Source: a virus. Taken from it: 34,656 nucleotides of DNA. Of the stretch, positions 3,680 to 31,004 are shown piece after piece. The DNA lies in the IMG/VR virus record IMGVR_UViG_3300037300_000313, positions 1 to 34,656 of that record; one strand, given 5' to 3'. The notes under the pieces were generated by a model. It did no database searches and was not told the DNA's origin. It saw only the letters and a program-made list of their open reading frames with translations. A program made the position numbers and the translations under genes. Every line of letters begins with the position of its first letter. The first letter of the stretch is position 1.

Positions 3680-3715
3680 TAGGTGACGTTAAAGAATAGG
3701 GGTGTGAAGACCTCT
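3680..3715 (+). promoter_or_regulatory. Candidate phage promoter, copy 1, with leader hairpin
   Basis: TAGGTGACGTTAAAGAATA (3680-3698) matches the motif shared with copies at 11275, 11309 and 21273. It is followed directly by GGGG and the hairpin AGGGGT-GTGAAG-ACCTCT (3698-3715). The shape, a linear AT-rich motif of about 19 bases ending AATA followed by G, resembles single-subunit phage polymerase promoters. It precedes the tail-tip operon starting at 3747. Function is inferred from recurrence and position. Confidence 0.6.
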
Positions 3716-4367: not shown

Positions 4368-4930
4368 TGAAGACTAATGCTAACGAACTTATCAGTCTCC
4401 TAGACGGAACTGATCTTGGTTTCTTTGCTCTTGTAGAGTTCAACTGGAATCAAAACTACTACTACACTGACCTTGGTCGTGATGTTACTTGGAACGGTAA
4501 CCTTTACCTTGCTAACCCTATGCCAATTGTCAGCATGGAACCCTTAAAGTATTCTAGTATTGTAGACCGTGAAGCCTTTAACCTGCAAATTTCTGCTATC
4601 GATCCTGCTATGAGAGCTGAGTTTGATTTTGGAATTGTTAACAGGTCCGTTAAAATTAGAACCGTCTTTACTTCTTTTGGAGCACCTCAACTGGGGTTGT
4701 CTCAAACACTACTTCTTTATGAAGGGACTGTAAGTAAAATCAGTGAAGTAATTAGTAATGAAACTCGTATTTTTAACATTGAGTGTACAGCTCCCTTGTC
4801 TAACCTAGACGCTACAGGGACTCTCTATACAACTCGTGATGGTATGAAAGTATTTAACGCAAATGACACAAGCTTTGATACTGTCTTTGAGGGTAGTGAA
4901 GCGATCAGTCTAAAGTGGGGTAAGGTATAA
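4367..4930 (+). CDS. Minor tail tip protein, DUF2163/DUF1833-like
   Basis: I place the start at ATG 4367, which overlaps the previous stop (TAATG) and has GGGAGG about 7 bases upstream; a longer reading from TTG 4352 lacks such a site. The protein has about 187 residues. The N-terminal pattern ALVEFNWNQNYYYTDLGRDV then WNGNLYLAN matches the style of tail proteins just before the J-like protein, in which a short beta motif around TD-x-GRDV-x-WNGxxY is typical. In lambda-like tails such proteins build the hub between tube and tip. It overlaps the next gene by TAATG, so translation is coupled. Family name is a pattern-level judgement. Confidence 0.62.
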   Translation: MKTNANELISLLDGTDLGFFALVEFNWNQNYYYTDLGRDVTWNGNLYLANPMPIVSMEPLKYSSIVDREAFNLQISAIDPAMRAEFDFGIVNRSVKIRTVFTSFGAPQLGLSQTLLLYEGTVSKISEVISNETRIFNIECTAPLSNLDATGTLYTTRDGMKVFNANDTSFDTVFEGSEAISLKWGKV

Positions 4931-7900
4931 TGATTTTTCCATTTCTAATTGCTGCTTTTGGCTCACTGTTTTCAGCAGCAGTAACTATCTTTTCTATTGT
5001 TTCTACTATTGCCAGTGCTATTTACCAACGTAAAAGGCAGAAAAAACTAGAATCAGAACTCGATAAACAAAAAGGCTTTAACCTAGTAACTGAACGTGAT
5101 CCTATTCACTTGCCGCTAGTTTATGGTACACAAATGGTTGGTGGTGTTAGGTCCTTCCATAAGACTATGAATGTGTTGACTCAAGCTCCTGCGCTTACTA
5201 GTCAAGGTTGGAAGAGTTTTCGTTACGGCTTAATTGACCCAAACATAGCTTATACTGGTACTGAAATTGACAGGCTCAGGAATGAGTTTCTTAACGGACT
5301 AAGGGGTACCTCAAGACGCAACAGGGATGGTGACGTTGAAATTGGTAATCCTGTTTTTGTCCCACCCACGGCACCAAGTAACGTAAGTAGCGTCAGTAAA
5401 AACCAATGGTACATCACGCAACAAGCTCTTTGCTTTGCTGGTATTGATGACATTATTGATATTGAGGTAAATAGTCAAAGTTGGAATCGTGGTAAGTTTC
5501 AACACATTCTAGAGTGCCACAGAAACGGTGGTATTGCTAACCCTACTGCTACGGCTTCCGGAGTTCCAGCAACCAACCTCTTCACTAACATTGCTTGGAT
5601 TAACGCTGTTTACTTTTTGAACCGTGATGAGCCTAACTACCAAGGTACACCTAGCCTTAATGCTTTTATTAAAGGTCAGAGGCTTTGGAACATTACTAAT
5701 AATAATTCTGTTTTTGCACTAGGTACAAAGTCTTACTCTAATAACAACTCTCTTGTTCTCTTAGATTACTTACTCCGGCCCTCTGAACTTGGTGGTCTTG
5801 GTCTTGGTAATCTTTCAGCGTCAGTTTGGCTTGCTGGTATTGTAAAACCCAACACAGACAAAGTTTGGCTTAAGTTTTTTTGGGAAGCTGCTCAACTTTG
5901 TGATACTGTAGTAGAAACCCTTCCTAAAGTTCGTGGCCGAGTTAACGGTGTACCCGATATTGACAATCGTGTTATTGCTCTTTCTGATCGTGAAGACGGT
6001 AAAGAAATTGGTGAAACAGTTTATGTAGAGGCTACAGATCAAGTTTTTGATTGGGTTCCTGTAAGTGGAACAAATCAGTGGGTGCTTAAAACTGCCTCTC
6101 GAGTTGTTAAGCTTTATGAGTGTAACATTACACTAGATACGCAACGTACTTTTCGAGACAACATTGAGCTTATTCTTGAAACTATGAGTGATGCTGAACT
6201 TGTTTACAGTGAAGGTAAGTACAAGCTTATTCTTAACTACCCAGAAAATAATGCTGCACAAGAACTTCTGCTCGTTGACTCTTATACAGACGCTAACATT
6301 GTAAACGGTGAAGTTTCTATTTCTTATCCGGGAGCTTCTGACAGGCTAAATCGTGTTGTTGTTAAATTTAATAACGAACAACTAGACTTTGGAACTGACT
6401 CAGTAAGTTGGCCGCAGTGGGGTGATGCTAACCATACAAAGCTCCTTGCAGAGGATAATGGTAAGCACTCTAAACAAGAGATTTTTCTACCGGGTTGTTC
6501 CATTTCTACCTTGGCTTTAGCTAAAGCTGAAACTATGGTACGTCAGTCAAGACTTTATGTTGGTGACGAACTTATTACTCCTAACTCGGGTTTTTCTCTA
6601 AACCAAAAGCTTATTACTCTTAAGCTAGATCGTCGTGCTCTCATTCTAGAAACAGGTGACTTGTTTAAGCTTACAAGTCTTGACGCTGAGATTACTAACG
6701 AAGTTTTTAAAGTTGAGACTATTAAGTACACTAAGAAAATGGAAGTAGAGGTTACGGCTTCTCAGTTTAACCACACTAACCTTAAGTACTCAAGTAAAGT
6801 TACTACTATACCACGACCTGTTTTTGTCTTTAACGACGTTAAACCACCTATTACAGCGTTTGGTTACGTTCCAAATAGAAGGTTTGGTCAAGGTGAAGAA
6901 TCTAATGGTTACTTGACTTGGGCTCCGCCTATTAACCAAGCTGTTAAAAACTACTACTTGTACTACTCTGACAGTCTTGGTAATATTTTCCCTCTTGGTG
7001 TAACTACTGAAGAGTACTTTGACTTACCAGCCACCTTTTTGGCTGCACAGTCTTACTTTTTTATTATTAAGTATGAAATAAGCAGTGGTGCTATGTTTCC
7101 GGGTTCAACTGTAATTGTAAACAACTTAATTAGCTTGTTGCCCGCCGCTAACTTAACAGCTTTGTCTGGTATAAACAGTGTTCTTCTTAGGTGGACTAAT
7201 GAAAAACCTCAACTTGTTTTAAGATATGAAATCTTTAGAGGGTTAACTAGTAACAGGTCTCTGGCTACAAGACTAGCCTTGACTACTGATCTTAATTTTA
7301 CAGTTTCACCTCTTAGTACTTCTAACCATTATTTTTGGGTTGATGCTATTAGTAAAGATGGTTCTGTTGCAGTAATGTCAGTACCTCTTCTTGTTCAAGC
7401 TTCTGAACTAGGTATAAAGAGTATTGATATAGCAGAAATAGTTAACCTGACTAGCTTTGCCGCTGGAATTCGCCCGGTAGAGGTTCTAGGTGCTTTGCCG
7501 GGAATACCTCACGTTGCAGGACGACAAGTGTTCTTGACTACCGACAACAAACTATATCGCAACACTGGTACAGGTTGGACGCGGGCGGTGGACGGCGGCG
7601 ACCTCGTCGCGAACAGCATCGTAACTGGCAGTATCGCAGCGGGCGCAGTTAACACTTCACAGCTTGCTGCAAATGCTGTTATTGCTTCAAAGATTGCTGT
7701 AACTAGCATTGAAAACCTTTGGCCTGATGGTAGTTTTGGAAACCAAGATACTGAACTCTTTACAGTTACCGGAACTGGAGCAACTTCAGCTTTTCCTTAT
7801 AATTTAAGCCGAACAGGGGGTAACAGTTTAGGTCTAGTCCGACCTGCTGGGCAGCATAACGTTACAACTTTAAAAACCGAGTATTATGCTCCGGTAAGAG

Positions 7901-10885: not shown

Positions 10886-11277
10886 AAAAGCTTTTTGTAG
10901 CTTTACTTTTAATTGTGACTCTTACTTCTTGTTCAAAAGTAGGTGGTGTTGTAGCTAAGGCTGCTCTTGGTGGTATTGGACTTCCAACAGCAGCCTCGGC
11001 ACAAGTAGGTAAGACTAACACTCAAACTATAGGAACCTCAGAAAATGTTGACTTTGTAGTAAAAGACGTTACAAACAGCACTATCAGACCTGTTATGAGA
11101 CCTACGGGTATTACCACTACGGACAAGGTAGAAACAATAAATCAGATAAATAACAACGTACCTTTCTGGTTTATTGTCGCTTTTATCCTGTGGAGTATCT
11201 TTCTTTGGGAACTTCCTAGGTTCAGTACTATAGTAGAGTACTTCAAAAAAGGTAAACAAAAACAACAATATAATTAG
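10882..11277 (+). CDS. Lipoprotein with C-terminal membrane helix, u-spanin candidate
   Basis: This 131-residue protein has a lipoprotein signal: MKK, a hydrophobic stretch, then LTSC with the modified Cys at residue 17. Near the other end is a single membrane helix at about 94-110 (PFWFIVAFILWSIFLWE), followed by a basic cytoplasmic-type tail. A protein anchored by lipid in the outer membrane and by a C-terminal helix in the inner membrane is the topology of unimolecular spanins, as in phage T1, which fuse the two membranes at lysis. It closes the lysis cassette, just before the twin candidate promoters. The roughly 75-residue linker is Thr/Asn/Val-rich. Assignment rests on topology and position rather than on sequence similarity. 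Confidence 0.68.
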   Translation: MKKLFVALLLIVTLTSCSKVGGVVAKAALGGIGLPTAASAQVGKTNTQTIGTSENVDFVVKDVTNSTIRPVMRPTGITTTDKVETINQINNNVPFWFIVAFILWSIFLWELPRFSTIVEYFKKGKQKQQYN

Positions 11278-11312
11278 GGTGCGTTAAAGAATAGAGCCTA
11301 CCACAAAGTAGG
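11275..11312 (+). promoter_or_regulatory. Candidate phage promoter, copy 2a, with hairpin
   Basis: TAGGGTGCGTTAAAGAATA (11275-11293) matches the repeated motif with two or three differences. It is followed by GAG and the hairpin CCTAC-CACAAA-GTAGG (11297-11312). The 3' arm of the hairpin overlaps the first bases of copy 2b. It starts at the stop codon of the spanin-like gene and lies upstream of the portal gene. Confidence 0.57.
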
Positions 11313-11342
11313 TAACGTTAAAGAATAAAGAGGTCTTTCCTC
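11309..11342 (+). promoter_or_regulatory. Candidate phage promoter, copy 2b, with hairpin
   Basis: TAGGTAACGTTAAAGAATA (11309-11327) is the best match to the consensus. A short hairpin GAGG-TCTTT-CCTC (11330-11342) follows three bases later. The copy lies 34 bases after copy 2a and 50 bases before the portal start, so head genes would have a tandem promoter, fitting their need for high expression. Confidence 0.62.
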
Positions 11343-11376: not shown

Positions 11377-12987
11377 GTGTCAGAAATTAAAGTTTCTAGT
11401 GTAGCAGTGAAGAAAAACGTGGGTACTCCTTCTGATGAGTATGAGTCGATGTTGAATCTTTGGGCAAAGTGTCGTTCTGTTATTAGAGGACAAGATGCTT
11501 GTAAAGCTCATGATGAGTATGTAAATGACTATGATGACAAAGGTGTTTCTAAGAACTTGCTACTCCCTTTCTCACCTTCTATGTCTCAAAACCAGTATGA
11601 CTTTTTCAAAGCTGAAGCTGAACTACCAAACATTACATCACAGTATGCAAAGTCTATGGTTGGTGCTTTGCTCAGAAAAGATGCAAGCTTGGTAATTACT
11701 GACAGGCTTGGTGAAAAGTTCCAAAAAGACGTAAATGACTGGTTGAGGTACGAACTTACAGCAGACAATCGCTCTATGTTTCACTTCCTTGATAACGCTC
11801 TTTGGGAAGAAATTCAAACAGGTTACTGTTGGATCTATGCTGATCTTCCCAGTGTAAACGAAACAGAATATGAAGTTATGACAGAAGAACAAAAGAAAAC
11901 TGTTAAACCTTACCCTGTTACTTTGACAGCTGAACAAGTTATTAACGTAATCTATGGTAAGCACCCTATTACAAAAGCTCCAGCTATGTTGCGCTTTATT
12001 ACTAGGTACTTCACTAATGTTTTTTCTGAAGAAAACCCTTGGCACCCTGAGCGTGTTGACACAGTAAGAGATCACTTCCTAGATAATGAAGGTAAGCTTG
12101 TAGTAAAAGAGTATCACTCTAAAAAGCAAACCGTAGACATTTCTATCAAGGGTGGTCAAGTTTTTAATGAGGAGTTGACTGACAGTTCCTTTGGTAAAGA
12201 GGCTTATTCTTTTATTTTGGAAAAAGAGTTTAAACCAACTCGCTTTGGCGAAAGGCTTAATACTATTCCTGCTTGGCCACTTGATGGTGAGTATGAACTA
12301 GAAGACCCTCTCTTGCTTAACTTTGTTAACAGGGAGATTGGACTTTATAACAAGGTATCTCGAAGAAATCACTTAATGTATGGAGCCGCTACTTACACAC
12401 CTATTATTACAGGTGTTGAAGATGAAGACAAACAGTTGGAAATTGTCAGGTCTGGTCTTGGTAGTTGGATTTTTCTTGATACAGGTGCAACAGCCGAAAC
12501 ACTAGCCCCACCAACAGAAGCACTAGCTGACATGCAAACAGCTATTGAAGCTACTATTAGTGAAATGGCCCGCCTAGGTATCCGTATGCTTTCCCCTGAA
12601 ACTGTGCAGTCTGGTACAGCACTAGAGGTGAGAAGCAACGTACAAACTGCCTTGCTAGGGACACTTAACATGAAAGTTTCTACAACACTACGTAGTGTTT
12701 TTACTTTCTTGATTAACTGGCGCTACGATACAGACCTGACAACTAACGAAGTTGAGTTTAACATGTCTAGTGATTTTAGTCCTCAAAGCCAAGGTGAAGA
12801 GGCTATGCGTCTTATTGGAGAATGGTACCAAAGTGGTCTTATACCTCGTTCAATCTTTATTGAAGCAGCTAAGAGTAATGACTACATTCCTGCCGACTAT
12901 AACGATAAGTCTGGTGTAGAAGAACTAGAAAAAGATCCAGTTAGGCAAATGGCAATGGAAAGTCAGTCACCTACTATACAAGAATAA
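11377..12987 (+). CDS. Portal protein, DUF4055-like
   Basis: This 536-residue protein forms the dodecameric ring at one capsid vertex through which DNA passes. The start is GTG at 11377 with AGGAGG at 11363-11368, 8 bases away; an ATG at 11369 reaches a stop after two codons. The N-terminus SDEYESMLNLWAKCRSVIRG is characteristic of the DUF4055 portal group. Then come the LLLPFSPSMSQNQYDFFKA and GALLRKDASLVI segments, the central stem-like region, and a C-terminal helical region with MARLGIRMLSPE. Position before the MuF protein, scaffold and capsid gene is standard for portals. Tandem candidate promoters sit just upstream. A hairpin and a tRNA follow. Confidence 0.86.
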   Translation: MSEIKVSSVAVKKNVGTPSDEYESMLNLWAKCRSVIRGQDACKAHDEYVNDYDDKGVSKNLLLPFSPSMSQNQYDFFKAEAELPNITSQYAKSMVGALLRKDASLVITDRLGEKFQKDVNDWLRYELTADNRSMFHFLDNALWEEIQTGYCWIYADLPSVNETEYEVMTEEQKKTVKPYPVTLTAEQVINVIYGKHPITKAPAMLRFITRYFTNVFSEENPWHPERVDTVRDHFLDNEGKLVVKEYHSKKQTVDISIKGGQVFNEELTDSSFGKEAYSFILEKEFKPTRFGERLNTIPAWPLDGEYELEDPLLLNFVNREIGLYNKVSRRNHLMYGAATYTPIITGVEDEDKQLEIVRSGLGSWIFLDTGATAETLAPPTEALADMQTAIEATISEMARLGIRMLSPETVQSGTALEVRSNVQTALLGTLNMKVSTTLRSVFTFLINWRYDTDLTTNEVEFNMSSDFSPQSQGEEAMRLIGEWYQSGLIPRSIFIEAAKSNDYIPADYNDKSGVEELEKDPVRQMAMESQSPTIQE

Positions 12988-12990
12988 TTA

Positions 12991-13010
12991 GGACCAAACT
13001 GGTCCCTTTT
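12991..13010 (+). terminator. Tight hairpin with short T tail between portal and tRNA
   Basis: GGACCA (12991-12996) pairs perfectly with TGGTCC (13000-13005) around a three-base loop AAC, followed by CTTTT. It could be a weak terminator or an RNA processing element releasing the tRNA. A 6-bp stem with a 3-base loop and purine centre also has the geometry of N4 virion-polymerase promoters, but that is speculative. Confidence 0.5.
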
Positions 13011-13086
13011 CCCCTTTAGCTCAGTTTGGTAGAGCACTTGCCTTGTAAGCATGAGGTCGTTGGTTCGAGGCCAACAGGGGGAACCA
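13010..13086 (+). tRNA. tRNA-Thr (anticodon UGU)
   Basis: A full cloverleaf can be drawn. The acceptor stem is TCCCCTT (13010-13016) with AGGGGGA (13076-13082), including one T-G pair. The D arm is GCTC-AGTTTGGTA-GAGC; the anticodon arm is CTTGC-CTTGTAA-GCATG with anticodon TGT. The T arm is GTTGG-TTCGAGG-CCAAC, and discriminator A plus encoded CCA end at 13086. The anticodon stem has one T-T mismatch (second pair). It would read ACA and possibly other Thr codons, which are common in these phage genes. It lies inside the head operon, between portal and the MuF-polymerase gene. Confidence 0.93.
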
Positions 13087-13117: not shown

Positions 13118-16100
13118 ATGGAAATAAATCAAGAACTCTTTGATAGTACAATTGATCACGCTGTGGACGTTAAGCTTTTTGAAGAGAGTGTTCAGGTAGG
13201 TAATAACCGTATTATTAGGCGTCATAAAGAAAAACTTTTGGCTATAGTTAAGGCAGACCTTGCTGGTCCATTGGTAGATAAGAAAAAATCTTTTAACAGT
13301 TTAAAAGCTGAACAGTCTAGGTTTGCCACAGAACTATTTTCTTGGCAAAAGACAAACATGACAGAACTTTCTACGGCTGAACTAGACTTCTCAAGCAACC
13401 TTCTTAACAAGAGTGCTAGAGGGTTTTATGAAGTAGAAAGGCCGAAGGTAAGAGAAATTCTTTCTCCGATTACTGGCTCTGTGATGAAAGGAGAAAAAAC
13501 CTTAAAAGGCAACATTAGTAACATCACTGCTGGTGAGCTTGTTAGAGTACAGACAAAAATTAAGTCTGGTCAGGCAAGAAAACTCACCCCTAATGAAATA
13601 CTTAAAGAAGTAGACGCCACTACAAGGATTACCTCTTCACAAACTTCCACTATTACTCGTACAGCAATTACTAGTACTCAAAGAGATTCTTTGGTAAGTA
13701 CCCTAGAGGCTAACGCTTCTCTTGTAAAAGGTTTCATGTTTTCTGCTATTCTAGACACACGTACCTCAAGTATTTGTAGCTTTCATAACGGTAAAGTCTA
13801 TAGTGTTGATAACAAAAGCTTTATGCCACCACTACACTTTAACTGTCGTTCTACTATGGTTCCTGTACTTAGGAGTAAGGAAGAACTACAAGGTAACGTT
13901 GAAGACTTGAGAATTAAGCAAGAAGGTCTTTCCAAAGTTTCTGATGGTTTCCTTTCAGGGGTTACTGCCGCTAAAGAAAATCTCAGTGAGTGGTTAAAAA
14001 GGCAAAGCTTTCCTACACAAGTGAAAATGCTAGGTGATGAGTTTCGAGTAAAGCTGTTCAGAGAAGGTAAACTTCTAGCTGAAGAGTTTATTACGCCTAA
14101 GGGTCTGGCGCTTAGTATAACTGCACTAAGAAAAAGAGCAGCTAGCGCAGTTTCAATTTATAAACCAAGACAGGAACTTAGGGAAGAAACTACAAAACTT
14201 TCTGTTTTTAAACCTAGTGAGCTGGTAAATAAGCCAGAAAACAGGGTAAAAGTTCGAGAATTGTTCTTGCTAGACTCTGATGATTACAACAAAACTTACG
14301 CCCTGACTGATTTTAAAGGAACTTCTCTACAAGGTAAACAAACTGCTCGCCGAAGAGTTGGCAATGAGTTTGACCCTAGTAATAACAGCTTTGACCCTCT
14401 TACTGGTGAAGCTAAGAATAACAACCTTTATGATCCTAACTACACACTGTTTCAAGAACGCCTTGATTTTATGCGAAACTCTAAAACACTAAAAGCTGAA
14501 CACAAGTCTTTTATTGAAGACGTTGTTAACGGTATTGAAGATAAAGTTTCTATAAACCAACAGACAGTTGCTATTGAAAACCTGAGAGTAGTTATTGAAC
14601 GTGCTCTAAGTGATGGTCAACCTTGGGATAACCTAGCCTCTGTGCTTCGTGCTGAAAACAGGTTTTCTGTACAAAACGTTTCTCGGCTTCTTGACGTAAG
14701 ACAGCGCAATGACAATGAGCTTTTTGCAAAGTTTACTGGAAAAGCAGAAGACAGCCTTCAAGTTCAAATTATGGGCAAGTACTACGACTTAGACTCACTG
14801 CAGGCTAACAGACTTAAGGACCAGCGTTTTATTGATGACTTTCGTAGAACCACTGGAAAAGAACTGGCAACAGAACTTTACTTGAAAGGTAAGCTTCCGG
14901 CTCGTGCCTACTTTAGCAACCTAGCAGGACAGTACCCTACTACAAAAAAAGTTAAAAAGTGGCTTATAGCTAACACTACAGTTGGAAGAGCTTACACAGC
15001 CTACAAGAAGTTTGGTGAGCCTAAAGATGACTGGTGGGTAACTCAAGTACAAACCCTTAACGAAAACTACCGTTACATTGTTGACCTAGAGTTTCTGAGA
15101 GTAAGTAAAAAACCGTCTTCCGATTTCCTCGATGACAGTGCAATCAACTCTCTCAGCAAGGCAGTAAAACTTGTAGCCTCAGGTCAGATGACAGACTATG
15201 ACGGTTTGGCCATTGCTATAGGTAAGCAGTTTGCTAAAGACTTTGAAAACATTCTGCCTTTTACAAAACACACTATGAAAGACTATCACAAGGAAGGTTC
15301 TAAAATCCTTGAGTTTATGTTGTCAAGTAAGATGATTAGAACAAACTTTCGTGGTAAAGTAAGACGAGGTGTTTATGACGTAGACACAGGTAGGTCTTCT
15401 TCTAGTTGGGGTGACACTATCTCAAGAGAAGTAGAAGTGCTAGACAAGAGAATGATAGCTTTGCAAGAAGCTGAACGTAGGACAGTTATTGCTAGACGTC
15501 TAGGTATTGTTGAGGAACGTGACAGACTCATTGTAAAAGCCAACAAGAAAACCTACTTTGATGCTAGAGGTAACGACACAGGTATACCTATTATCTCAAG
15601 AAACAAAGCTGCTAGTTATGATGCTACTCAAATTGACTCTGACATAGCTAACATGATGAATCATGCTATGGACGTTGAGTATGAGGTTGACCCAGAGTTC
15701 TTTAGCTTTATGGATGACCTAGTGCGCTTTCGTGACCCTCGTGGTAACTCTAAGTACTATGATGGTATCAATGAGTTTAGACATGAAGTTCTTGCTCGTG
15801 GTGACCAAGGCTACGGTCTTATGACTACAGCTAAGTGGCATGCTCAGAGAGGGAAACCCTTTAAAACAGAAGTCTACCTTGACTCTCGTGGTCGTGTTTA
15901 TCACCGTGGCTACCTAACACCTACTGGTGGGGAAATGGTAAGGCCCTTTCTAAATGATGCTAGGGCTGTCTCTATGACACCGCAAGCCTTGAGAGAAATA
16001 CGTATTCAGACTGGCGCTATGATTGGAGAGAGTACAGAAGCCCTTACCCAAACTGGTAGGTTGGAAATCTTTGCTAGAAATGAAAAGTCAATCTTAGAGC

Positions 16101-17524
16101 TAGGTCAGCTTCTTATGAGCAAAACCCAAAGAGACAGACGCCTTCGTGAGTTCCTTGAACACCCTCTTATTCAAAAACTTGAGGGGCCTGAGGTTCCAAA
16201 GTTGGCTAGGCTTTCCCTAGAATATGCTCGTGTACATAAGCACAATAACGGTGACTTTTTAAACAGTAAGTTATTGTCTACCTACAAAACCAAGCTTATG
16301 GTTGAAAACGACGCCTCTGCCTCTGGTGCCCAAATCATCGGGCTTAGCACTCGTGACAGAATGATCTCAGAGGCTTCCAACGTTGTTGCTACAACTAAAA
16401 AGAACAGGCTCTATGACCTTGTAGCTATGGATACTATTGATGATCCTGAATTTTTGAAAATACCCGCTCTACGTGATGCTAACCTTACTTGGGGAGACCT
16501 TGCTAAGGCTGCTAAGTCTCAGAACTTGGTTAGCTTCTATGGTGCTGGTGCTAACACTAAGACAGCTAACGTTGCTAGGGAGTTTGCTAAGGTACTTGAA
16601 AAGAAAGGTATTATGGCAATCACAAAAGAAAGCTTAGCTGAACAGCTTAGGATTATTGATACAAAGATAAAGCTTTCAAATAAGATTGGTGCCACAGTAG
16701 TAGAAGCTGAACTTAAAAACTTCAGAGAAGAACTGTTGGACCTTGTTAATAAAGATCAAAGTGTTGCTATTAAGTTAATGAAAGAGGCTGAAGAGATTTC
16801 GGAAGAAACCGCCGCCTTTGTAGCAAAGCTAATGAACAACCGGGGAGGACTAGTTGGACCAGAAGACTTCAAAAAGATTTCTGAGATCATGTCTAAAAAC
16901 CTTTCTGCTCGTGCCCCTGTTACAGACAACTTTATTCAGTTCTGGAAACTCGCCGCCAAGTCCTATGTAAAAGATACCAACAGTGTAGATATCCCGTGGA
17001 TAACTTTCGATGGTAAGCTCATGACACAAAAGTATAGGCCGCAGCTACAAGAAAGAATAGAGTTTAAAGACCCTGTTACAGGTCGTAAGGTTATGAATAT
17101 CTATCAAATGGAAGCCCAAGATGGGAAGCTACTTGGTAAGGGTTCTATTGCTGATGCCACTATTGGCCTTGGTGTGAACGGTAACCACTCTAACGACGCT
17201 AGTATTGTGAGGCAGTTCCACTTGTGGGGTCGTAAAAACAATCTTAGCACTGCAACAATTCACGACGCTTTCTTTACAAACGTTGCGGTAGCTGATAAAG
17301 CTATTTCCGCACTTAAAGTAATTTACGCAGACTCTCTTGATAGTAACACTATTAAGGACACACTAAAAGCTATGAGAAAAAAGGGTATGTCACAGAAAAC
17401 TTATGAAATTCTTCTTAGTGAAGCTAGAAAAGCTGGACTGATTGACGTGAGAAACCCCTTGACTAGAGAAGATATCTTGAAGCCTATACCTGAGGGGATG
17501 GACTACTATGGTATTGGACCATAA
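13118..17524 (+). CDS. MuF minor head protein fused to T7-type single-subunit RNA polymerase
   Basis: This 1468-residue protein sits where a MuF minor head protein is expected, between portal and scaffold. Residues about 180-250 hold the MuF signature: AILDTRTSSIC (D213, C220), HNGKVY, and PPLHFNCRS (H240, C243). The C-terminal half, from roughly residue 500, is a single-subunit RNA polymerase. It shows D922-S-R-G-R926 (T7 DxxGR), motif A ENDASASGAQ with D1065, motif B with K1133 and Y1141 at the same 8-residue spacing as T7 K631-Y639, and motif C TIHDAF with H1382 and D1383 (T7 H811-D812). The Arg four residues before the motif B Lys in T7 is Ala here, with Lys at 1130. Residues about 250-500 are unassigned. 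By position it should be in the virion and enter the cell with DNA to transcribe first genes, as in N4. Packaging and activity are inferred. Confidence 0.92.
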   Translation: MEINQELFDSTIDHAVDVKLFEESVQVGNNRIIRRHKEKLLAIVKADLAGPLVDKKKSFNSLKAEQSRFATELFSWQKTNMTELSTAELDFSSNLLNKSARGFYEVERPKVREILSPITGSVMKGEKTLKGNISNITAGELVRVQTKIKSGQARKLTPNEILKEVDATTRITSSQTSTITRTAITSTQRDSLVSTLEANASLVKGFMFSAILDTRTSSICSFHNGKVYSVDNKSFMPPLHFNCRSTMVPVLRSKEELQGNVEDLRIKQEGLSKVSDGFLSGVTAAKENLSEWLKRQSFPTQVKMLGDEFRVKLFREGKLLAEEFITPKGLALSITALRKRAASAVSIYKPRQELREETTKLSVFKPSELVNKPENRVKVRELFLLDSDDYNKTYALTDFKGTSLQGKQTARRRVGNEFDPSNNSFDPLTGEAKNNNLYDPNYTLFQERLDFMRNSKTLKAEHKSFIEDVVNGIEDKVSINQQTVAIENLRVVIERALSDGQPWDNLASVLRAENRFSVQNVSRLLDVRQRNDNELFAKFTGKAEDSLQVQIMGKYYDLDSLQANRLKDQRFIDDFRRTTGKELATELYLKGKLPARAYFSNLAGQYPTTKKVKKWLIANTTVGRAYTAYKKFGEPKDDWWVTQVQTLNENYRYIVDLEFLRVSKKPSSDFLDDSAINSLSKAVKLVASGQMTDYDGLAIAIGKQFAKDFENILPFTKHTMKDYHKEGSKILEFMLSSKMIRTNFRGKVRRGVYDVDTGRSSSSWGDTISREVEVLDKRMIALQEAERRTVIARRLGIVEERDRLIVKANKKTYFDARGNDTGIPIISRNKAASYDATQIDSDIANMMNHAMDVEYEVDPEFFSFMDDLVRFRDPRGNSKYYDGINEFRHEVLARGDQGYGLMTTAKWHAQRGKPFKTEVYLDSRGRVYHRGYLTPTGGEMVRPFLNDARAVSMTPQALREIRIQTGAMIGESTEALTQTGRLEIFARNEKSILELGQLLMSKTQRDRRLREFLEHPLIQKLEGPEVPKLARLSLEYARVHKHNNGDFLNSKLLSTYKTKLMVENDASASGAQIIGLSTRDRMISEASNVVATTKKNRLYDLVAMDTIDDPEFLKIPALRDANLTWGDLAKAAKSQNLVSFYGAGANTKTANVAREFAKVLEKKGIMAITKESLAEQLRIIDTKIKLSNKIGATVVEAELKNFREELLDLVNKDQSVAIKLMKEAEEISEETAAFVAKLMNNRGGLVGPEDFKKISEIMSKNLSARAPVTDNFIQFWKLAAKSYVKDTNSVDIPWITFDGKLMTQKYRPQLQERIEFKDPVTGRKVMNIYQMEAQDGKLLGKGSIADATIGLGVNGNHSNDASIVRQFHLWGRKNNLSTATIHDAFFTNVAVADKAISALKVIYADSLDSNTIKDTLKAMRKKGMSQKTYEILLSEARKAGLIDVRNPLTREDILKPIPEGMDYYGIGP

Positions 17525-17592: not shown

Positions 17593-18345
17593 ATGCCTAA
17601 GACTATTGAAGAAATGGAAAAAGAGTTGGAAAAGCTTCGTGCGCTCGTAGCAATCAAAGAAAAAGAAAACACTGATCCTGAAGACGAAGACGAGGATGAA
17701 GAGCTTGAGAAAAAGAAGGCCGAAGAAGCCGCTCTAGAAGCTAAACAAAAGGCAGAAGAGGAAGAGGAAGAAAAACTCAGCCCTGACGTTCGTAAGCTTA
17801 AAGCTTCGCTTAACGCTCTTGATAAAAAATATAAAGACGCACTCAAAGAGCAAAAGATCCTTGAAGCCAAGGTTAAAGACTCCGACAAAAAGTCTCGTGA
17901 TGCAGAAATTGCGGCTCTTAAGAAAGAGGGTAAAGAATCTGAAGCCTTGACAAAACAAGCAGAAGACCTTTCTGCAGAGATTGCTGTACTTCGTGAAGAA
18001 AACGTAACTTTGCGTCGGGATCAAGTTTTGGACTCAGCTATTGCTGGCGTAGAGTTTAAGAGTGAACGTAGCCGTAAACTAGCTCGAAAAGACATTCTCG
18101 ATCAACTGTCGAAAAATGAAGATGGTTCTTGGTCAAGTAAAGATGGTAAGTCTATTGAAGACTTTGCTGCAAATTACTTTGAGGAAGAAGAAAACAGACA
18201 CTTGTTTCTTAAAGCTAAAATGAACTCCGGTTCAGGTACAGAAACTAAAGTAGCTAATACCAGCACTAATGGTGGTGGAACTGAGTCTATTTTTGACGTA
18301 CCTCAAGCACAACTTATGAAAAGTATCAAGCGAAAGCTTGGATAA
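17593..18345 (+). CDS. Capsid scaffolding protein
   Basis: This 250-residue protein is strongly charged and helical. Residues 1-65 contain an acidic block DPEDEDEDEELEKKK. Residues 65-145 form long coiled-coil-like heptads (LKASLNALDKKYKDALKEQ, then LSAEIAVLREENVTLRRDQ). The end carries a basic tail KSIKRKLG, typical for the capsid-binding helix-turn of scaffolds. It lies directly before the major capsid gene with AAGGAG upstream. It should line the inside of the procapsid shell and leave or be degraded before packaging. No protease domain is visible in it or in neighbouring genes. Confidence 0.85.
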   Translation: MPKTIEEMEKELEKLRALVAIKEKENTDPEDEDEDEELEKKKAEEAALEAKQKAEEEEEEKLSPDVRKLKASLNALDKKYKDALKEQKILEAKVKDSDKKSRDAEIAALKKEGKESEALTKQAEDLSAEIAVLREENVTLRRDQVLDSAIAGVEFKSERSRKLARKDILDQLSKNEDGSWSSKDGKSIEDFAANYFEEEENRHLFLKAKMNSGSGTETKVANTSTNGGGTESIFDVPQAQLMKSIKRKLG

Positions 18346-18361
18346 TAAAGGAATATAACAC

Positions 18362-19465
18362 ATGCCTATTGACACAGCTAACTTTCAAGTTTATCAAGAA
18401 ATGGTTCGCCAGTACCAGCACGAAGCCTACACTACTTCGCGTAAACTGACCGGAACGGGGGTTGTTGGTAACCGCTCGGACGTAGACGGTAGCGTGGAAT
18501 CTTACATTGGACAGTTCCGCTGGTACAAGCCGCTGAACCCGGTTATTAACATTGCTTCGGCTACTAACGCGGCTGATGGTCTTCTGACCGAAGTTTCGAC
18601 CGACATTGCTAAGTACGTCAAGACTGTTCGTACTAACGGTGGTGAGGCTGTGAACGTGGCTGAAGTTATCACTAAGGAAGACGGACTCAAGAAGCTTGGC
18701 CGAGACCTTGCTCAGACCCGCTCGGACGACGAAGGTACTGCCCTCATGTCTGTGCTTCAAGGCGTGGCCGCTGCTGAAGCCTTTCGAGGCAGTGTCAGTG
18801 GTGTTGTTAACTATGACACTAATGCCGATGCGGTTAACACAGGTTTCTTTGTGGACGTTAACGCTGCTGGTACCTTTGGTGCTACTGCTACTGGCGCTGG
18901 TGACCAACGTCGTCTTTTTGACTCTACTGGTATTGGCGCTGCTCGTGGTGAACGACTGTTTAAAGCTATTGGTATGGCCTTCAAGGACAACGAGCCTGAC
19001 TACATGTACATGGTTACTTCTCCTGAAACCATTGCTGAACTCCGAGCTGCTAACCTCGTTGAAGACACAAAGGTCACAGATGGTCAGCTAGAGTTCTCTA
19101 CACTGTTTGAGGGTAAGTTCCGACTTCTTCCTACTCGTCAAAACCAAATGGCTTCGGGCCTGACTGCTGGTCGTGTAAACGCCCGTTCGACTAAGTGTAC
19201 CTTCCTCTTGAAGCCCGCTGCTGTGTCGTTCTCGCCCGTTGTGCCGCCTATGCCTGTCGAAATTGACCGTAAAGCTGCTTCCTTTGGTGGTTCGGGTTCT
19301 AACCAAGTTTGGTACCGTTGGGGCTACGTTATGCACCCTGAGGGTTATTCGTGGTCCGGTGCTGAGAACGCTTTTGCTTCTAACGCAAACCTCAGTGCCG
19401 CTGCCTCGTGGACTCGTAAGGTTGACTCGCTCAACTTGCCTATCCTTTCTATTTTCCACTCGTAA
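18362..19465 (+). CDS. Major capsid protein
   Basis: This 367-residue protein follows the scaffold gene by 16 bases and precedes the neck genes, the standard place of the shell protein. The sequence is rich in Ala, Gly, Thr and Val. It has an N-terminal arm-like helix (FQVYQEMVRQYQHEAYTT), a helix-rich central part (GLKKLGRDLAQTRSDDEG), and a beta-rich C-terminus. An HK97-type fold is expected for this order of genes but no signature proves it. Codon use differs from most of the window: TCG, CTC, GCC and CGC are frequent, as if tuned to a GC-richer host for high expression. It has no clear maturation cleavage site. Confidence 0.85.
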   Translation: MPIDTANFQVYQEMVRQYQHEAYTTSRKLTGTGVVGNRSDVDGSVESYIGQFRWYKPLNPVINIASATNAADGLLTEVSTDIAKYVKTVRTNGGEAVNVAEVITKEDGLKKLGRDLAQTRSDDEGTALMSVLQGVAAAEAFRGSVSGVVNYDTNADAVNTGFFVDVNAAGTFGATATGAGDQRRLFDSTGIGAARGERLFKAIGMAFKDNEPDYMYMVTSPETIAELRAANLVEDTKVTDGQLEFSTLFEGKFRLLPTRQNQMASGLTAGRVNARSTKCTFLLKPAAVSFSPVVPPMPVEIDRKAASFGGSGSNQVWYRWGYVMHPEGYSWSGAENAFASNANLSAAASWTRKVDSLNLPILSIFHS

Positions 19466-21272: not shown

Positions 21273-21311
21273 TAGGTAACGTTAAAGAGAGAGGGGAGAA
21301 ATCCCCTTTCT
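21273..21311 (+). promoter_or_regulatory. Candidate phage promoter, copy 3, with GAAA-loop hairpin
   Basis: TAGGTAACGTTAAAGAGA (21273-21290) matches the consensus until the last three bases. A 10-bp stem, AGAGAGGGGA with TCCCCTTTCT (one wobble), closes the GNRA tetraloop GAAA at 21298-21301. It is the strongest of the hairpins linked to this motif and could cap the 5' end of the tail transcript. It sits between the tail tube gene and the 80-residue gene at 21329. Confidence 0.6.
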
Positions 21312-22647: not shown

Positions 22648-25600
22648 ATGCTAGGTAGTGGAGCTGGTACTACAAAAGGCGTTACTATTAAGGTAAGAGC
22701 AGACACCTATAACGCTGAAAAAAACATGGCCCAACTTACAAGGTCAGTTAAAAACATTGATAACCAAGTTTCTAGGCTAGGTAAGTCTGTAAAGATTGCT
22801 GCAATTGCCTTTGCTGGTTTTGTTGCAGTAAATGGTTTTCTAAAAGGTGTTGCTAAGACTACTGACTCTATGGTTAACCTCGAAAACAGGCTTGCTCTTG
22901 TAGTAGGTCGTGGAAAAGAGCTTAACCAAACCTTTGAGGTACTTAGAAAGATTTCTGCTAAAACGGGTTCTTCTGTTAAGTCTTCAGCAGACATTTACAG
23001 TCGTTTTGGTATTGCATTGAAGAGTGCTAACGTAGAGTCTGAAGACCTTTACAAGATTACTGAAACCCTGCAAAAGTCAGTTTCCCTGTCTGGTGCAGAC
23101 GCAGTGGGTGCAGAAGCGGCTCTTATGCAGCTTGGTCAGGCCATGTCTTCTGGTGTGTTCCGTGGTGAAGAATTTAACTCAGTTAACGAACAACTTGGTC
23201 GTGTTATGGAGTCTCTTTCTATTCAGCTAGGTAAAACTAGAGGTGAGCTTAGAGCTATGGCTGAGGCTGGAGAACTTACTAGCGACGTAGTTTTTGCAGC
23301 ACTCCTTGCTGACGCTGAAAACGTTAACAAAGAATTTGAAACACTTAACTTTACCACTGCAAAACTTGCTCAGGTCTTTCGTGACGAGCTTACACTAGCT
23401 ATATCAAAGGTAGACAAAGCTTTTGGTATTTCAGAAAGCATTAAGAAAAAGCTAGGCTCTATGACTAAGGCTGTTCAGTTTTTTAATGATAACTTTGAAG
23501 GTATTGTTCTTAGAATTAAGCTTTCTGTAAATGCAATAAAGCAGTTGTTTGCGGGTATGTCTTCAAGCGTTCAAAACTACCTTCGTAAAACTTTCGGTGG
23601 AGACCGTTGGGATGCTGCCTTTTCTGGCCTTGGAAAAGCCCTAGCAAAAATACAAAGCTTTATTGCTAGCGTAATTGGCTTTTTTAAAGATGCTTGGCAT
23701 CAAATTGTTGGCAACTCTTACTGGCCTGAAATTTTTTATGAAGGTGCTAGAGCTATAGCTGGTCCTAACACTATTGCAGCTATTAATAAAGTTATTGGTT
23801 GGGTTTACAACTTTGTTACTAATATAAAGCAAAGTTTTTCTAAACTTAATAACTCAGCTACAGGTCTTTGGGAAGAAACTATAAAGAAAATTGAAAGCTT
23901 AGACCTTAAAACTTCTCTTGATCAAATTAGTATACCGCAAGCTTTTAAAGAGTGGATAAGTAGCCAAACAGACACAGCTATAGCTGCCGTAGCTTTAGGT
24001 TTAGGTTTAGTATTTCGTTTTGGTATTAGAAGAGCTTTTCTTGGCGCTGTTGCTTTAGCTCTTGCTCCTGAAATACTTAACTCCGGTATTTTCCAAAGTA
24101 CACTGTTTACACTTGGTAAAGGTATTGGAACGGCAATAAACGAGTTGTTTACAGGTGATGGCGAATTTGGTGAAAGACTCATACAAGGTATTAAAGACTC
24201 TCTTGCTTCTCTTGGTAGGGGTGTTTGGGAAGGTCTTTTTCCGGGTGCAGTAATAGAAGACTTTCAAGCTACTGTTGTAGGTACCCTTACTGGTGGCGCA
24301 CTTGGGGCACTGCTTTTTGCAGGACTTGGAAGAGCAATTTTTGGTTTACTTGCTGCTTTTGCTAGATCAATAATTGTAATGTTAGGAACATACTTATTGG
24401 CGGCAGCTATAGCAAACCCTATTGGTGCAATAATTACTGTTATTATAGCAGGGTCCTTTGCTATGGAGGCTTTTGACCTAGATAGAATAATAGGTGACTT
24501 TGTAGGTAATATTTTTGCTACTATGGTAAGTTGGCTTGGCCTTGGTTCAGGTGGTCAGCTACTAGTTAAAAATGCCATTAGTGGTATGATAGTAATTGCC
24601 TTGTCTCCTTTTAAATTTGTAGGTAAAATTATAAAAGCTATATTTTCTTCTGAGTATTCTATTGCTGATGCTTTTAGGGATAGTGGTCAAGAAATAGTGG
24701 AAGCTGTTAATGAGATTATTGATTTAATTACAGCTCCCTTTGAAGTATTTTTTACTTGGATTGGAACTAAATTTTCTGAAATAGGAAAGTCTATAAGAGA
24801 TGCTTTTTCAGGATTAGGTGGAATTAGCGATTCAGGACCGAAAAAACCATCAGTTGATTTACTTCCAGTTGAAGAAAGATTTCTTAACGAAACAAGACCT
24901 AAGCTTAAAGCAGCGGGGGGCTTTATTTCTGGACCCGGTACGGCCACTTCTGATAGTATACCAGCTATGCTTTCTAATGGAGAGTACGTTGTTAAAGGTG
25001 CTGCTGTAGATAAGTACGGCATTAACTTCCTTGACAAAGTTAACCAAGGTATGCTACCTAAGTTTGCTACTGGTGGTTACGTTGGTGGTGAGTCAGAAAG
25101 ACTTCAGGGTAAATTGGCTTCACTAGAAGCTAAACGTAACAGGATTATTATAAGTAACAAACTCAATAAAATTGATGATCCGGGTTACATTGTTGAGTCT
25201 ACTAGTTCTATAGAAGACAGTATCCGTTCTGTAGGCGAAAGAATAAACCAACTGAGTACTGACCAAGTTAATAACAGCGATGAACAAGAAACGGGTTCTG
25301 TTCAGAGTATGACTTCCTCAAGGAGCGTTAGTGATAAAGTTAAGGAACTTACAGGAAAAGGTAGCCTTCCTTCTTCGCTAACTGGTACTATTGAAAAGGT
25401 CATGGCAGCACTAGATGAACTTGGTATAGACTCTTCTCTTGCGTTAAAGGGTCCAGAAGCAATAAAAGAAGGTCTAAAGCTTCTTGAGCTTCAAAAGCAG
25501 CTTAACGCCCTGAGTGTTAGTGATGTAAACGCTGTTAAAGCAAAGACTGAGGAAATTAGAAAACAGCAAGAGCTTATAGACAAAACGCTACAAGGAAAAG

Positions 25601-26268
25601 AAGGCAACAGTATGAAAGAAGGCTTTTCTTCAAGCCTTTCTTCTGGTATAAGTGACTTCTTAAAAGGTGGTAGTCTTAAAGACCTGTTTACTGGGTTGCT
25701 TGATAACATTACATCTAACATTATTGATAATTTTTCTCAAGGGCTTACAGACTCTATAATGGACTCAAAGCTTTTTAAAGGAATTTTTGACAATTTCCTC
25801 AATCCAGATAACTTTAAAAAACTTGGTAAAAGTGTAGGTGGTATTTTTAAAGAAGTTGGTAGCGATCCCAAAACTTTTGAACCTATGAAAGGTGGACTTA
25901 CTAAAATGTTTTCTGGCGTAGGTAACTTTTTTAAGTCTATTTTTGGTTCTATTTTTGGTGGACTTGGTAAAGGTGCTGGCGTCAAGAAGCTCGCCTCTGG
26001 TGGTGTTGTACCAAACATTCCCGGTTCACAAGTTGGTAAAGACTCTGTGCCAGCTATGCTTATGCCCGGTGAGAGGGTTCTTTCTAAGAGTGACATTAGT
26101 AGTGGTACAAGGGGTGCTGGTTCTAACAGGACTACTACCGCTTCCTTTAACATTAACGTTACTGGTGATGTCTCTTCTCAAACTCGTAGAGAGATTATGG
26201 AAATGATCCCTCAAATTGCTCGTGGAGTAAACGCTGACAATCACGAGTCTAACTTTAGCTATAGGTAA
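22648..26268 (+). CDS. Tail tape measure protein
   Basis: This 1206-residue protein sets the tail length and helps DNA cross the envelope. The N-terminal 250 residues show the family pattern: membrane-leaning segment KIAAIAFAGFVAVNGFLKG, then ALMQLGQAMSSGVFRGEEFN, VNEQLGRVMESLSIQLG and RGELRAMAEAGELTSDV. Several hydrophobic segments lie at about 420-480 and 540-620. Two copies of a Gly-rich motif occur near residues 768 (SDSIPAMLSNGEYVV) and 1131 (KDSVPAMLMPGERVL), typical of tape measure C-terminal parts. Coiled-coil helices lie between them. AAAAGGAG precedes the ATG. At about 1.5 angstrom per residue the length suggests a tail in the 180 nm range, an inference from the family rule. Confidence 0.93.
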   Translation: MLGSGAGTTKGVTIKVRADTYNAEKNMAQLTRSVKNIDNQVSRLGKSVKIAAIAFAGFVAVNGFLKGVAKTTDSMVNLENRLALVVGRGKELNQTFEVLRKISAKTGSSVKSSADIYSRFGIALKSANVESEDLYKITETLQKSVSLSGADAVGAEAALMQLGQAMSSGVFRGEEFNSVNEQLGRVMESLSIQLGKTRGELRAMAEAGELTSDVVFAALLADAENVNKEFETLNFTTAKLAQVFRDELTLAISKVDKAFGISESIKKKLGSMTKAVQFFNDNFEGIVLRIKLSVNAIKQLFAGMSSSVQNYLRKTFGGDRWDAAFSGLGKALAKIQSFIASVIGFFKDAWHQIVGNSYWPEIFYEGARAIAGPNTIAAINKVIGWVYNFVTNIKQSFSKLNNSATGLWEETIKKIESLDLKTSLDQISIPQAFKEWISSQTDTAIAAVALGLGLVFRFGIRRAFLGAVALALAPEILNSGIFQSTLFTLGKGIGTAINELFTGDGEFGERLIQGIKDSLASLGRGVWEGLFPGAVIEDFQATVVGTLTGGALGALLFAGLGRAIFGLLAAFARSIIVMLGTYLLAAAIANPIGAIITVIIAGSFAMEAFDLDRIIGDFVGNIFATMVSWLGLGSGGQLLVKNAISGMIVIALSPFKFVGKIIKAIFSSEYSIADAFRDSGQEIVEAVNEIIDLITAPFEVFFTWIGTKFSEIGKSIRDAFSGLGGISDSGPKKPSVDLLPVEERFLNETRPKLKAAGGFISGPGTATSDSIPAMLSNGEYVVKGAAVDKYGINFLDKVNQGMLPKFATGGYVGGESERLQGKLASLEAKRNRIIISNKLNKIDDPGYIVESTSSIEDSIRSVGERINQLSTDQVNNSDEQETGSVQSMTSSRSVSDKVKELTGKGSLPSSLTGTIEKVMAALDELGIDSSLALKGPEAIKEGLKLLELQKQLNALSVSDVNAVKAKTEEIRKQQELIDKTLQGKEGNSMKEGFSSSLSSGISDFLKGGSLKDLFTGLLDNITSNIIDNFSQGLTDSIMDSKLFKGIFDNFLNPDNFKKLGKSVGGIFKEVGSDPKTFEPMKGGLTKMFSGVGNFFKSIFGSIFGGLGKGAGVKKLASGGVVPNIPGSQVGKDSVPAMLMPGERVLSKSDISSGTRGAGSNRTTTASFNINVTGDVSSQTRREIMEMIPQIARGVNADNHESNFSYR

Positions 26269-26291: not shown

Positions 26292-26597
26292 ATGAAAAAA
26301 TGGAAAGAGTTGTTTGATCGGAAGGGAGGTGATCTATTCTGGAAGGTCTCAAAAGGACGTTCCGCTGCTGGTTCTATAGCTGGTACAGACCATGGTGATG
26401 GTTATAAGACAGTGAGGATCGATGGTAAAGCTGTTTACGTTCACCGCATTATCAAAGAAATGACCACTGGAAAGGCTGTAGTAGGTGACGTAGATCACAA
26501 GGACCGCGACCGAAAAAATAACGACCCAAAAAATCTGAAAGTTGTGTCTAGGTCAGACAACAACCGTAACAGGTCTAGTTGGGCTAAAGCTAAATAA
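26292..26597 (+). CDS. HNH endonuclease
   Basis: This 101-residue protein carries the HNH nuclease core: YVHRIIKEM with H51, VGDVDHKDRD with D68-H69, NNDPKNLKVV with N77 and N81, and SRSDNNRNR with N90. This matches the HNH_3 group, in which a His, Asp-His and Asn form the metal site. The N-terminal 45 residues (FDRKGGDLFWKVS, DGYKTVRIDGKAV) look like the short beta part that precedes the nuclease in this group. It lies between the tape measure gene and a terminator. It may be a free-standing homing nuclease or serve DNA processing at packaging. AAAGGAGT lies before the ATG. Confidence 0.85.
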   Translation: MKKWKELFDRKGGDLFWKVSKGRSAAGSIAGTDHGDGYKTVRIDGKAVYVHRIIKEMTTGKAVVGDVDHKDRDRKNNDPKNLKVVSRSDNNRNRSSWAKAK

Positions 26598-26603
26598 ACC
26601 TTA

Positions 26604-26631
26604 GGCTACCCTCGTTTGGGTAGTCTTTTTT
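26604..26631 (+). terminator. Rho-independent terminator of the late operon
   Basis: GGCTACCC (26604-26611) pairs with GGGTAGTC (26618-26625) around TCGTTT, with one G-T pair, and six T follow directly. It is the only fully classical host-type terminator in the late region, 6 bases after the HNH gene stop. It separates the structural genes from the block of small genes. Confidence 0.9.
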
Positions 26632-26671
26632 ATCAAAAACGACCACAAAAAAGTGAGAAAACTAAGGCATC

Positions 26672-26677
26672 TATAAT
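26672..26677 (+). promoter_or_regulatory. Possible sigma70 -10 box ahead of the small-gene block
   Basis: A perfect TATAAT sits in the 147-base gap after the terminator and 67 bases before the first gene of the block. No good -35 hexamer is seen 16-18 bases upstream, where the sequence is A-rich. A host promoter is plausible by position, but the evidence is only this box. Confidence 0.35.
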
Positions 26678-26725
26678 AGAAAGAATCCTTTAGGGGAAGA
26701 AATCTAACGGGAATAATCCCAAGTA

Positions 26726-30831: not shown

Positions 30832-31004
30832 TGGAAAAACCAAAGTTCTATTGCAGGGTTATTTACCCTTATGTCAGCGAAGAATGGAAACCTGTTGTTT
30901 GTTACGTAGAAGGGAGAGTTGTTGTTGTGTCAGACATTGACGATGGTTTTCTTTGTTTAATTGATTTGCAACAATCAACTGTGGAGTTCAAAAGTGTCCA
31001 CTAA
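30831..31004 (+). CDS. Small hypothetical protein (57 residues)
   Basis: The start is ATG 30831, which overlaps the previous stop as TGATG; GGAGCAAC lies just upstream. The product is 57 residues, beta-like and aromatic (FYCRVIYPYVSEEWKP, then VVCYVEGRVVVVSDIDD). No membrane segment or catalytic motif is apparent. It overlaps the HD-domain gene by 11 bases. No family recognised. Confidence 0.55.
   Translation: MEKPKFYCRVIYPYVSEEWKPVVCYVEGRVVVVSDIDDGFLCLIDLQQSTVEFKSVH

Follow-up and report, generated by a model that had tools for sequence, protein, structure and literature searches.

Few independent ways are known for a phage to bring its own RNA polymerase (RNAP) to the host: the N4 type, the phiKZ/AR9 type, the crAss-like type and, in Thermus phage P23-45, fusion to the tape measure protein. 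N4-type phages and phiKZ-type jumbo phages are established carriers of virion polymerases (PMC5512222, PMC13282480), and in P23-45 the virion RNAP, joined to the tape measure protein, transcribes the gene for another RNAP (PMC10770324). Among MuF head proteins, SPP1 gp7 binds the portal and a few copies reach the procapsid interior (PMC6316719). MuF proteins also carry effectors (PMC5512222, PMC5576092), and gp7-like fusions have been proposed to deliver their cargo as infection starts (PMC6316719, PMC5576092, PMC5512222). Here we analyze a 34,656-nucleotide (nt) viral stretch (IMG/VR record IMGVR_UViG_3300037300_000313, positions 1 to 34,656; this whole stretch is referred to as the window), in which one gene encodes a MuF head protein fused to a T7-type single-subunit RNAP (MuF-RNAP). 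We propose, with a probability of roughly 0.8, that MuF-RNAP is a virion-borne RNA polymerase that uses its MuF head protein as a packaging handle and reads a class of early promoters (class 2).

The system closest in logic is that of P23-45, which likewise combines a long tail, a virion RNAP (gp96) that is part of a structural protein and a gene for a second, non-virion RNAP (gp64), with AT-rich promoters for the virion enzyme and another class for the second RNAP (PMC10770324). The carrier in P23-45 is the tape measure protein and both RNAPs are of the two-barrel, cellular type, whereas the window lineage has a MuF carrier and two right-hand, T7-type enzymes. N4 gp50 (Schitoviridae) is also a right-hand single-subunit polymerase within a large late structural protein and is followed by a second phage polymerase. 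However, it belongs to a podovirus, has about 3,500 residues with its own C-terminal encapsidation region and lacks MuF, whereas MuF-RNAP has 1468 residues and a polymerase half that reaches the C-terminus. Motif C reads FDGMN in N4 and HDAFF in MuF-RNAP, and N4 has a hairpin in its promoter, whereas the window lineage has a conserved stem downstream of the inferred start. The phages with virion and non-virion RNAPs (N4, P23-45 and phiKZ) resemble the window lineage in having two RNAPs, and the lineage has two promoter-like motif classes, one of them ahead of the non-virion RNAP gene.

MuF-effector proteins (Mu gpF, SPP1 gp7, MuF polymorphic toxins and MuF-ADP-ribosyltransferase proteins) share the N-terminal MuF carrier encoded beside the portal gene, often with a C-terminal enzyme. 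RNAP is not among the cargoes of MuF fusions in the sections consulted of the MuF and polyvalent-protein surveys (PMC5512222, PMC5576092). The T7 RNAP family (PF00940) shares with MuF-RNAP motifs A, B and C, DxxGR, the H784 equivalent, the fold and, probably, a promoter with a TATA end and immediate start; compared with T7 RNAP, MuF-RNAP differs in its polymerase of about 1100 residues, at about 14% identity, in its MuF N-terminus and in its putative place in the virion. The preliminary description had called the linkage of these two domains in a long-tailed phage a non-standard architecture. This needs qualification, as the whole lineage has the fusion and a structural protein bearing a virion RNAP is already known from the long-tailed P23-45 (PMC10770324). 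What is new, in our judgement, is the MuF carrier, the different (T7-type) polymerase and its own promoter class in the virion-RNAP strategy.

MuF-RNAP is encoded by a single, uninterrupted open reading frame (ORF) of 1468 codons that belongs to the late structural cluster. Residues 1-345 form the MuF head protein and residues ~361-1468 the polymerase. The order of genes is that of a standard siphovirus head cluster, with portal, tRNA-Thr, MuF-RNAP, scaffold-like and major head protein genes followed by tail genes. The MuF half matches PF04233 (Phage_Mu_F; E=1.4e-9, 39.1 bits against a curated cut-off of 29.6, residues 156-247) and, over residues 1-363, phrog_241 (E=1.8e-49), and a fold search with its AlphaFold2 model retrieves minor capsid, head morphogenesis and MuF proteins. 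The preliminary description had placed the gene between portal and scaffold and had pointed out a MuF signature of D213, C220, H240 and C243; the profile matches bear out both, and the four residues are the same in all 75 full-length relatives. These relatives are ORFs from fetched IMG/VR loci and take in a distant branch at about 30% identity (L135-L142). MuF-RNAP is longer in L014, L069 and L120 (about 1584-1603 residues), with about 130 additional residues before residue 361.

The polymerase half matches PF00940 (E=5.7e-6, 25.8 bits against a cut-off of 22, residues 1048-1424) and phrog_414, 'RNA polymerase' (E=7.9e-21). AlphaFold2 folds residues 361-1468 from a 43-sequence alignment with a predicted local distance difference test score (pLDDT) of 80.3 and a predicted template-modeling (TM) score of 0.73. 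The top Foldseek matches in the PDB are T7 RNAP (E=5.3e-19) and mitochondrial RNAPs (up to E=1e-14), which share 10-14% identity with the polymerase half (about 14% for T7 RNAP) and reach TM-scores of 0.37-0.45 by query length. The loss of fold that the preliminary description had named as a refutation is thus not seen. Against viral models, the first match is a 1463-residue homologue, whose length and identity fit the DSS3_VP1/DSS3_PM1 protein, and phage RNAPs follow. In the profile-profile comparison that the preliminary description had suggested, hhalign matches the polymerase half to a T7-type set at E=6.5e-12 and returns no significant match to an N4-type set (mini-vRNAP; probability 0.8%, E=0.07); the two sets match one another at E=3e-9. 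A single-sequence phmmer search of the PDB reaches T7 RNAP at a mere E=0.68, compared with 1.5e-6 for the alignment profile. By profile, the polymerase half is of the T7 type and no close relative of the N4 virion polymerase. Ancestry from the N4 virion RNAP is unsupported by the profiles, although N4-type virion RNAPs do appear lower in the viral fold search.

In the alignment with T7 RNAP, the equivalents of D537, D812, K631, Y639, R425, H784 and H811 are all matched, and the full motif set read earlier from the letters (D922-x-x-G-R926, D1065, K1133, Y1141 and H1382-D1383) is present. D922, R924, R926, D1065, K1133, Y1141, H1382, D1383, R1097 and H1357 are identical in all 75 relatives; indeed, every one of the sixteen MuF and catalytic positions tested is invariant in this set, down to about 30% identity. 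Over 39 pairs, the median ratio of nonsynonymous to synonymous substitution rates (dN/dS) is 0.089 in the polymerase and 0.076 in the MuF half.

Several relatives have an interrupted MuF-RNAP gene. The gene is broken at or near motif B in L024, L026, L028-L030, L105, L004, L136 and L143, and in the loci searched with Rfam a group I intron lies at the break (L024, L029, L105, L004, L136 and L143, the last with two). The insert in L004 also contains an HNH gene. These introns interrupt the DNA and should leave the protein and its catalytic codons intact after splicing. L126 and L128 have one interruption each in the MuF-RNAP gene.

The window belongs to the lineage of the roseophages DSS3_VP1 and DSS3_PM1 (Naomviridae, Noahvirus), which have a full-length, colinear ortholog at 67% identity, an identical gene order, a second RNAP and both promoter classes. 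The host of these roseophages is Ruegeria pomeroyi DSS-3, and the polymerase part of the VP1 protein covers about residues 345-1463. Deposited names for the protein are 'minor head protein-like', 'head morphogenesis' and 'head protein', and the DSS3_VP1 and DSS3_PM1 records leave the polymerase half unnamed. The fusion recurs at about 30% identity in EBPR siphovirus 1, where an HNH gene and a group I intron split it. These three are the only carriers among 50,697 phage records, and no fusion turned up in 84,980 bacterial and archaeal genomes. In IMG/VR, more than 500 contigs have MuF-RNAP relatives among the matches listed. The in-frame MuF fusion is kept in all members, those at about 30% identity included. 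The full-length homologues in isolates and in IMG/VR indicate that MuF-RNAP is neither a frameshift artefact nor a lone oddity; a frameshift or assembly error joining two genes, a concern of the preliminary description, is ruled out by colinear full-length homologues in two isolated phages and in the 75 ORFs.

The 3′ end of the window encodes the first 316 residues of a second, free T7-like RNAP, which share 65% identity with the corresponding residues (1-316) of the DSS3_VP1 RNAP. DSS3_VP1 and DSS3_PM1 both have this separate gene (the VP1 protein matches PF00940 at E=8.5e-83), and it is also present on seven long IMG/VR contigs, among them the distant branch G007. The records that lack it are either short or stop ahead of that region, and the sequence of EBPR siphovirus 1 is partial. 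Of the two phage RNAPs, one is thus encoded inside the structural cluster and the other outside it. In G004 (L193), about 720 bases interrupt the free RNAP gene between residues 268 and 269.

The noncoding DNA of the lineage genomes contains repeated, strand-specific motifs that fall into two promoter-like classes. Class 1 precedes the structural genes, MuF-RNAP among them. In the window it reads TAGGKNRCGTTAAAGA and occurs at 3680, 11275, 11309 and 21273, compared with a mean of 0.42 in shuffles (two mismatches allowed). Its VP1 type is found in VP1, PM1, the window, G004 and G005, and a CTGAC(C/G)TT(A/T)AAG type in G001, G002, G006 and G008; G003 has AATACTGCCGCCTAATGA and G007 has ACCCGTTAAATTAACCC. 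Among genomes covering the free RNAP gene, these types track the clade and the specificity loop of the free RNAP, a co-variation that reading of class 1 by the free RNAP would produce. In G003, the free RNAP and class 1 have diverged, with MuF-RNAP and class 2 both normal.

Class 2 lies 3′ of a terminator-like hairpin and ahead of the early genes. Its consensus takes the forms GTGAGAAAANNANNGCATCTATAAT (used for exact searches), AAAAAGTGAGAAAANNANNGCATCTATAAT and GTGAGAAAAnnAnnGCATCTATAAT, the last followed by a start at G or A. VP1 has copies at 35795 and 36242. The motif is near-constant from VP1 to G003; in G007, where MuF-RNAP is at about 33% identity, it is altered but similar (GGAAAAATnAGTATCTTATATGATA). 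The exact form occurs in 72 stretches among 2.9 million viral contigs, all 72 of which carry lineage genes, and the same search gives zero matches in 84,980 prokaryote genomes. In the testable cases, class 2 follows the tape measure gene (62/62) and precedes the free RNAP gene (33/33), always on the same strand.

Of 104 distinct class 2 sites, 61 have a perfect stem of 5 pairs or longer that starts exactly at the base after TATAAT, compared with a mean of 0.67 and a maximum of 4 in shuffles. The stem sequences differ between sites (GATAC/GTATC, GATATA/TATATC, GATAAA/TTTATC, GAACT/AGTTC and GATAGAA/TTCTATC), suggesting that the pairing itself is kept. The position of this stem-loop suggests that, unlike with sigma70, transcription of class 2 probably starts directly after TATAAT: a start there would give an RNA with a 5′ stem-loop, whereas a sigma70 start about 7 nt on would lose the 5′ arm. 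A TATA end followed directly by the start is typical of T7-type polymerases. In one subgroup, whose sites read CCCAAAAAGTGAGATTTTTGGGGCATCTATAATGA, the upstream half of class 2 could form a hairpin with GTGAGA in its loop, recalling the N4 promoter hairpins. An N4-like hairpin inside the promoter is confined to this GTGAGATTTTTGGGG subgroup and was rejected as a general feature.

A polymerase fused to a portal-bound head protein, together with private early promoters, suggests that these phages probably inject their own RNAP and start transcription without that of the host. Late in infection, the free T7-like RNAP would transcribe the structural genes, including portal and MuF-RNAP, from class 1. 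The MuF part would then bind the portal and, in the manner of SPP1 gp7, take a few copies inside the procapsid, and MuF-RNAP would enter the new host along with the DNA. There it would transcribe the early genes from class 2, including the operon with the free RNAP gene, and the free RNAP would in turn transcribe middle and late genes, so that new MuF-RNAP is made and the loop closes. The preliminary description had already taken the head protein for the delivery vehicle, an interpretation supported by the place of the gene in the late cluster, by the conserved second RNAP and by an exclusive, non-sigma70 motif class before the early genes.

Several points weigh against this proposal. The TATAAT within class 2 is a perfect sigma70 -10 box, and the class 2 site of the window itself starts with A and is without a perfect 5-pair stem. 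The structural match to T7 RNAP is modest (TM-score 0.37-0.43 by query length, root-mean-square deviation 11-22), in line with an identity of 14% and the presence of insertions. To enter the host, a protein of 1468 residues would need to travel through a long, narrow tail, probably in an unfolded state, a difficulty that the tape-measure fusion of P23-45 shares. Finally, both the presence of MuF-RNAP in the virion and its polymerase activity are inferred.

Host RNAP might instead read the early genes through the TATAAT of class 2, with MuF-RNAP acting otherwise after entry, by making primers, pulling DNA in or boosting a subset of genes. The perfect -10 hexamer at the end of class 2 fits such a role of host RNAP, and T7 RNAP is known to help pull DNA in. 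We nevertheless consider this explanation unlikely and the sigma70 reading of class 2 disfavored. No -35 box lies 16-18 nt from TATAAT and the class 2 site is missed by the sigma70 scan, the conserved block runs unbroken through the sigma70 spacer, and a sigma70 start would remove the 5′ arm of the stem-loop; moreover, the motif is exclusive to the lineage and absent from the prokaryote genomes searched. MuF-RNAP could also be a late polymerase that is used in the producing cell and removed or left out before packaging, as its location in the late structural cluster would allow. This is less likely still, given that the late genes presumably already have the free T7-like RNAP, with its co-varying promoter class, to serve them and that the in-frame MuF fusion is conserved even in the most diverged members. 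An inactive structural relic, retained to scaffold or plug the head, would accord with a Pfam score barely over the cut-off and with the strong divergence from T7 RNAP, but is very improbable in view of the sixteen invariant positions, the low dN/dS of the polymerase half and the nature of the motif B breaks, group I introns whose splicing should spare the catalytic codons.

If MuF-RNAP is indeed packaged and injected, it would add one more way for a phage to bring its own RNAP, with a T7-type enzyme and a new carrier, MuF, that is a very common siphovirus head protein and would then deliver more than toxins. It would also explain how infection could start regardless of host transcription and would give biotechnology a compact pair of polymerase and promoter (class 2). 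The lineage is abundant and marine and has two cultured members, making the proposal directly testable, and the confinement of the class 2 motif to this lineage makes a precise prediction that can be checked. On balance, though with less confidence than in the virion role itself, we favor a broader picture in which widespread marine siphoviruses independently evolved a MuF-hooked T7-type virion polymerase and run a two-polymerase, two-promoter cascade free of host RNAP throughout, some members having deoxyuridine genomes.

Table 1 Features of the MuF-RNAP locus and its surroundings, in window coordinates
Feature	Position	Strand	Evidence or remark
MuF-RNAP fusion gene, 1468 residues	13118..17524	+	ORF; full-length homologues
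MuF / portal-associated head part, residues 1-363, Pfam core 156-247	13118..14206	+	PF04233, phrog_241, AlphaFold2 model
T7-type single-subunit RNA polymerase part, residues 361-1468	14198..17521	+	PF00940, phrog_414, AlphaFold2, Foldseek, hhalign
Polymerase motif D922-S-R-G-R926	15881..15895	+	aligned with T7 D421-W-R-G-R425
Motif A catalytic aspartate D1065 (= T7 D537)	16310..16312	+	T7 alignment, relatives
Motif B, K1133 to Y1141 (= T7 K631 to Y639, equal spacing)	16514..16540	+	group I intron insertion site in several relatives
Motif C, H1382-D1383 (= T7 H811-D812)	17261..17266	+	T7 alignment, relatives
Class 2 (early) promoter-like motif AAAAAGTGAGAAAACTAAGGCATCTATAAT, inferred start 26678	26648..26678	+	shuffles, 0 matches in 100
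Terminator-like hairpin with T-run, closes the structural cluster	26603..26626	+	ahead of the class 2 motif
Second, free T7-like RNAP gene, start only, cut by contig end	33704..34656	+	65% to DSS3_VP1 RNAP
Class 1 promoter-like motif TAGGTGACGTTAAAGA	3680..3695	+	motif scan
Class 1 promoter-like motif, ahead of portal / MuF-RNAP	11275..11290	+	motif scan
Class 1 promoter-like motif, ahead of portal / MuF-RNAP, second copy	11309..11324	+	motif scan
Class 1 promoter-like motif	21273..21288	+	motif scan
Portal protein gene, directly 5′ of MuF-RNAP	11377..12987	+	phrog_145 E=6.9e-48
tRNA-Thr(TGT), in the portal / MuF-RNAP gap	13010..13086	+	tRNA call
Scaffold-like gene, 3′ of MuF-RNAP	17593..18345	+	phrog_206 E=3e-4
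Major head protein gene	18362..19465	+	phrog_247 E=1.7e-22
Tail tape measure gene (long-tailed phage)	22648..26268	+	phrog_2335 E=9e-60 and others

The window also encodes a YfbR-like HD hydrolase (30961-31548) that is 50% identical to the product of DSS3_VP1 gene 40058-40615. The latter is the only YfbR-family match of VP1 and hence presumably its characterized dTMP phosphatase (PMC12697855). The window phage may have a deoxyuridine genome too. Deoxyuridine DNA as a general reason for a virion RNAP was rejected, as dCMP-deaminase and YfbR-like genes are patchy and the fusion is constant.

A free-standing HNH_3 endonuclease gene (26292-26597; PF13392 E=1.5e-12) occupies the interval between the tape measure gene and class 2 in the window, with no homologue detectable in VP1. 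The gap between portal and MuF-RNAP, which holds one tRNA-Thr in the window, holds a tRNA-Asn in VP1 and arrays of tRNA genes in other relatives (L024, 73-544; L029, 1-456; L105, 5060-5519). In DSS3_VP1, the terminase large subunit gene (4390-6410; L003, 3149-5169) is divided into two ORFs by an insertion, possibly an intron, and in the window and in DSS3_PM1 it is a single, unsplit gene.

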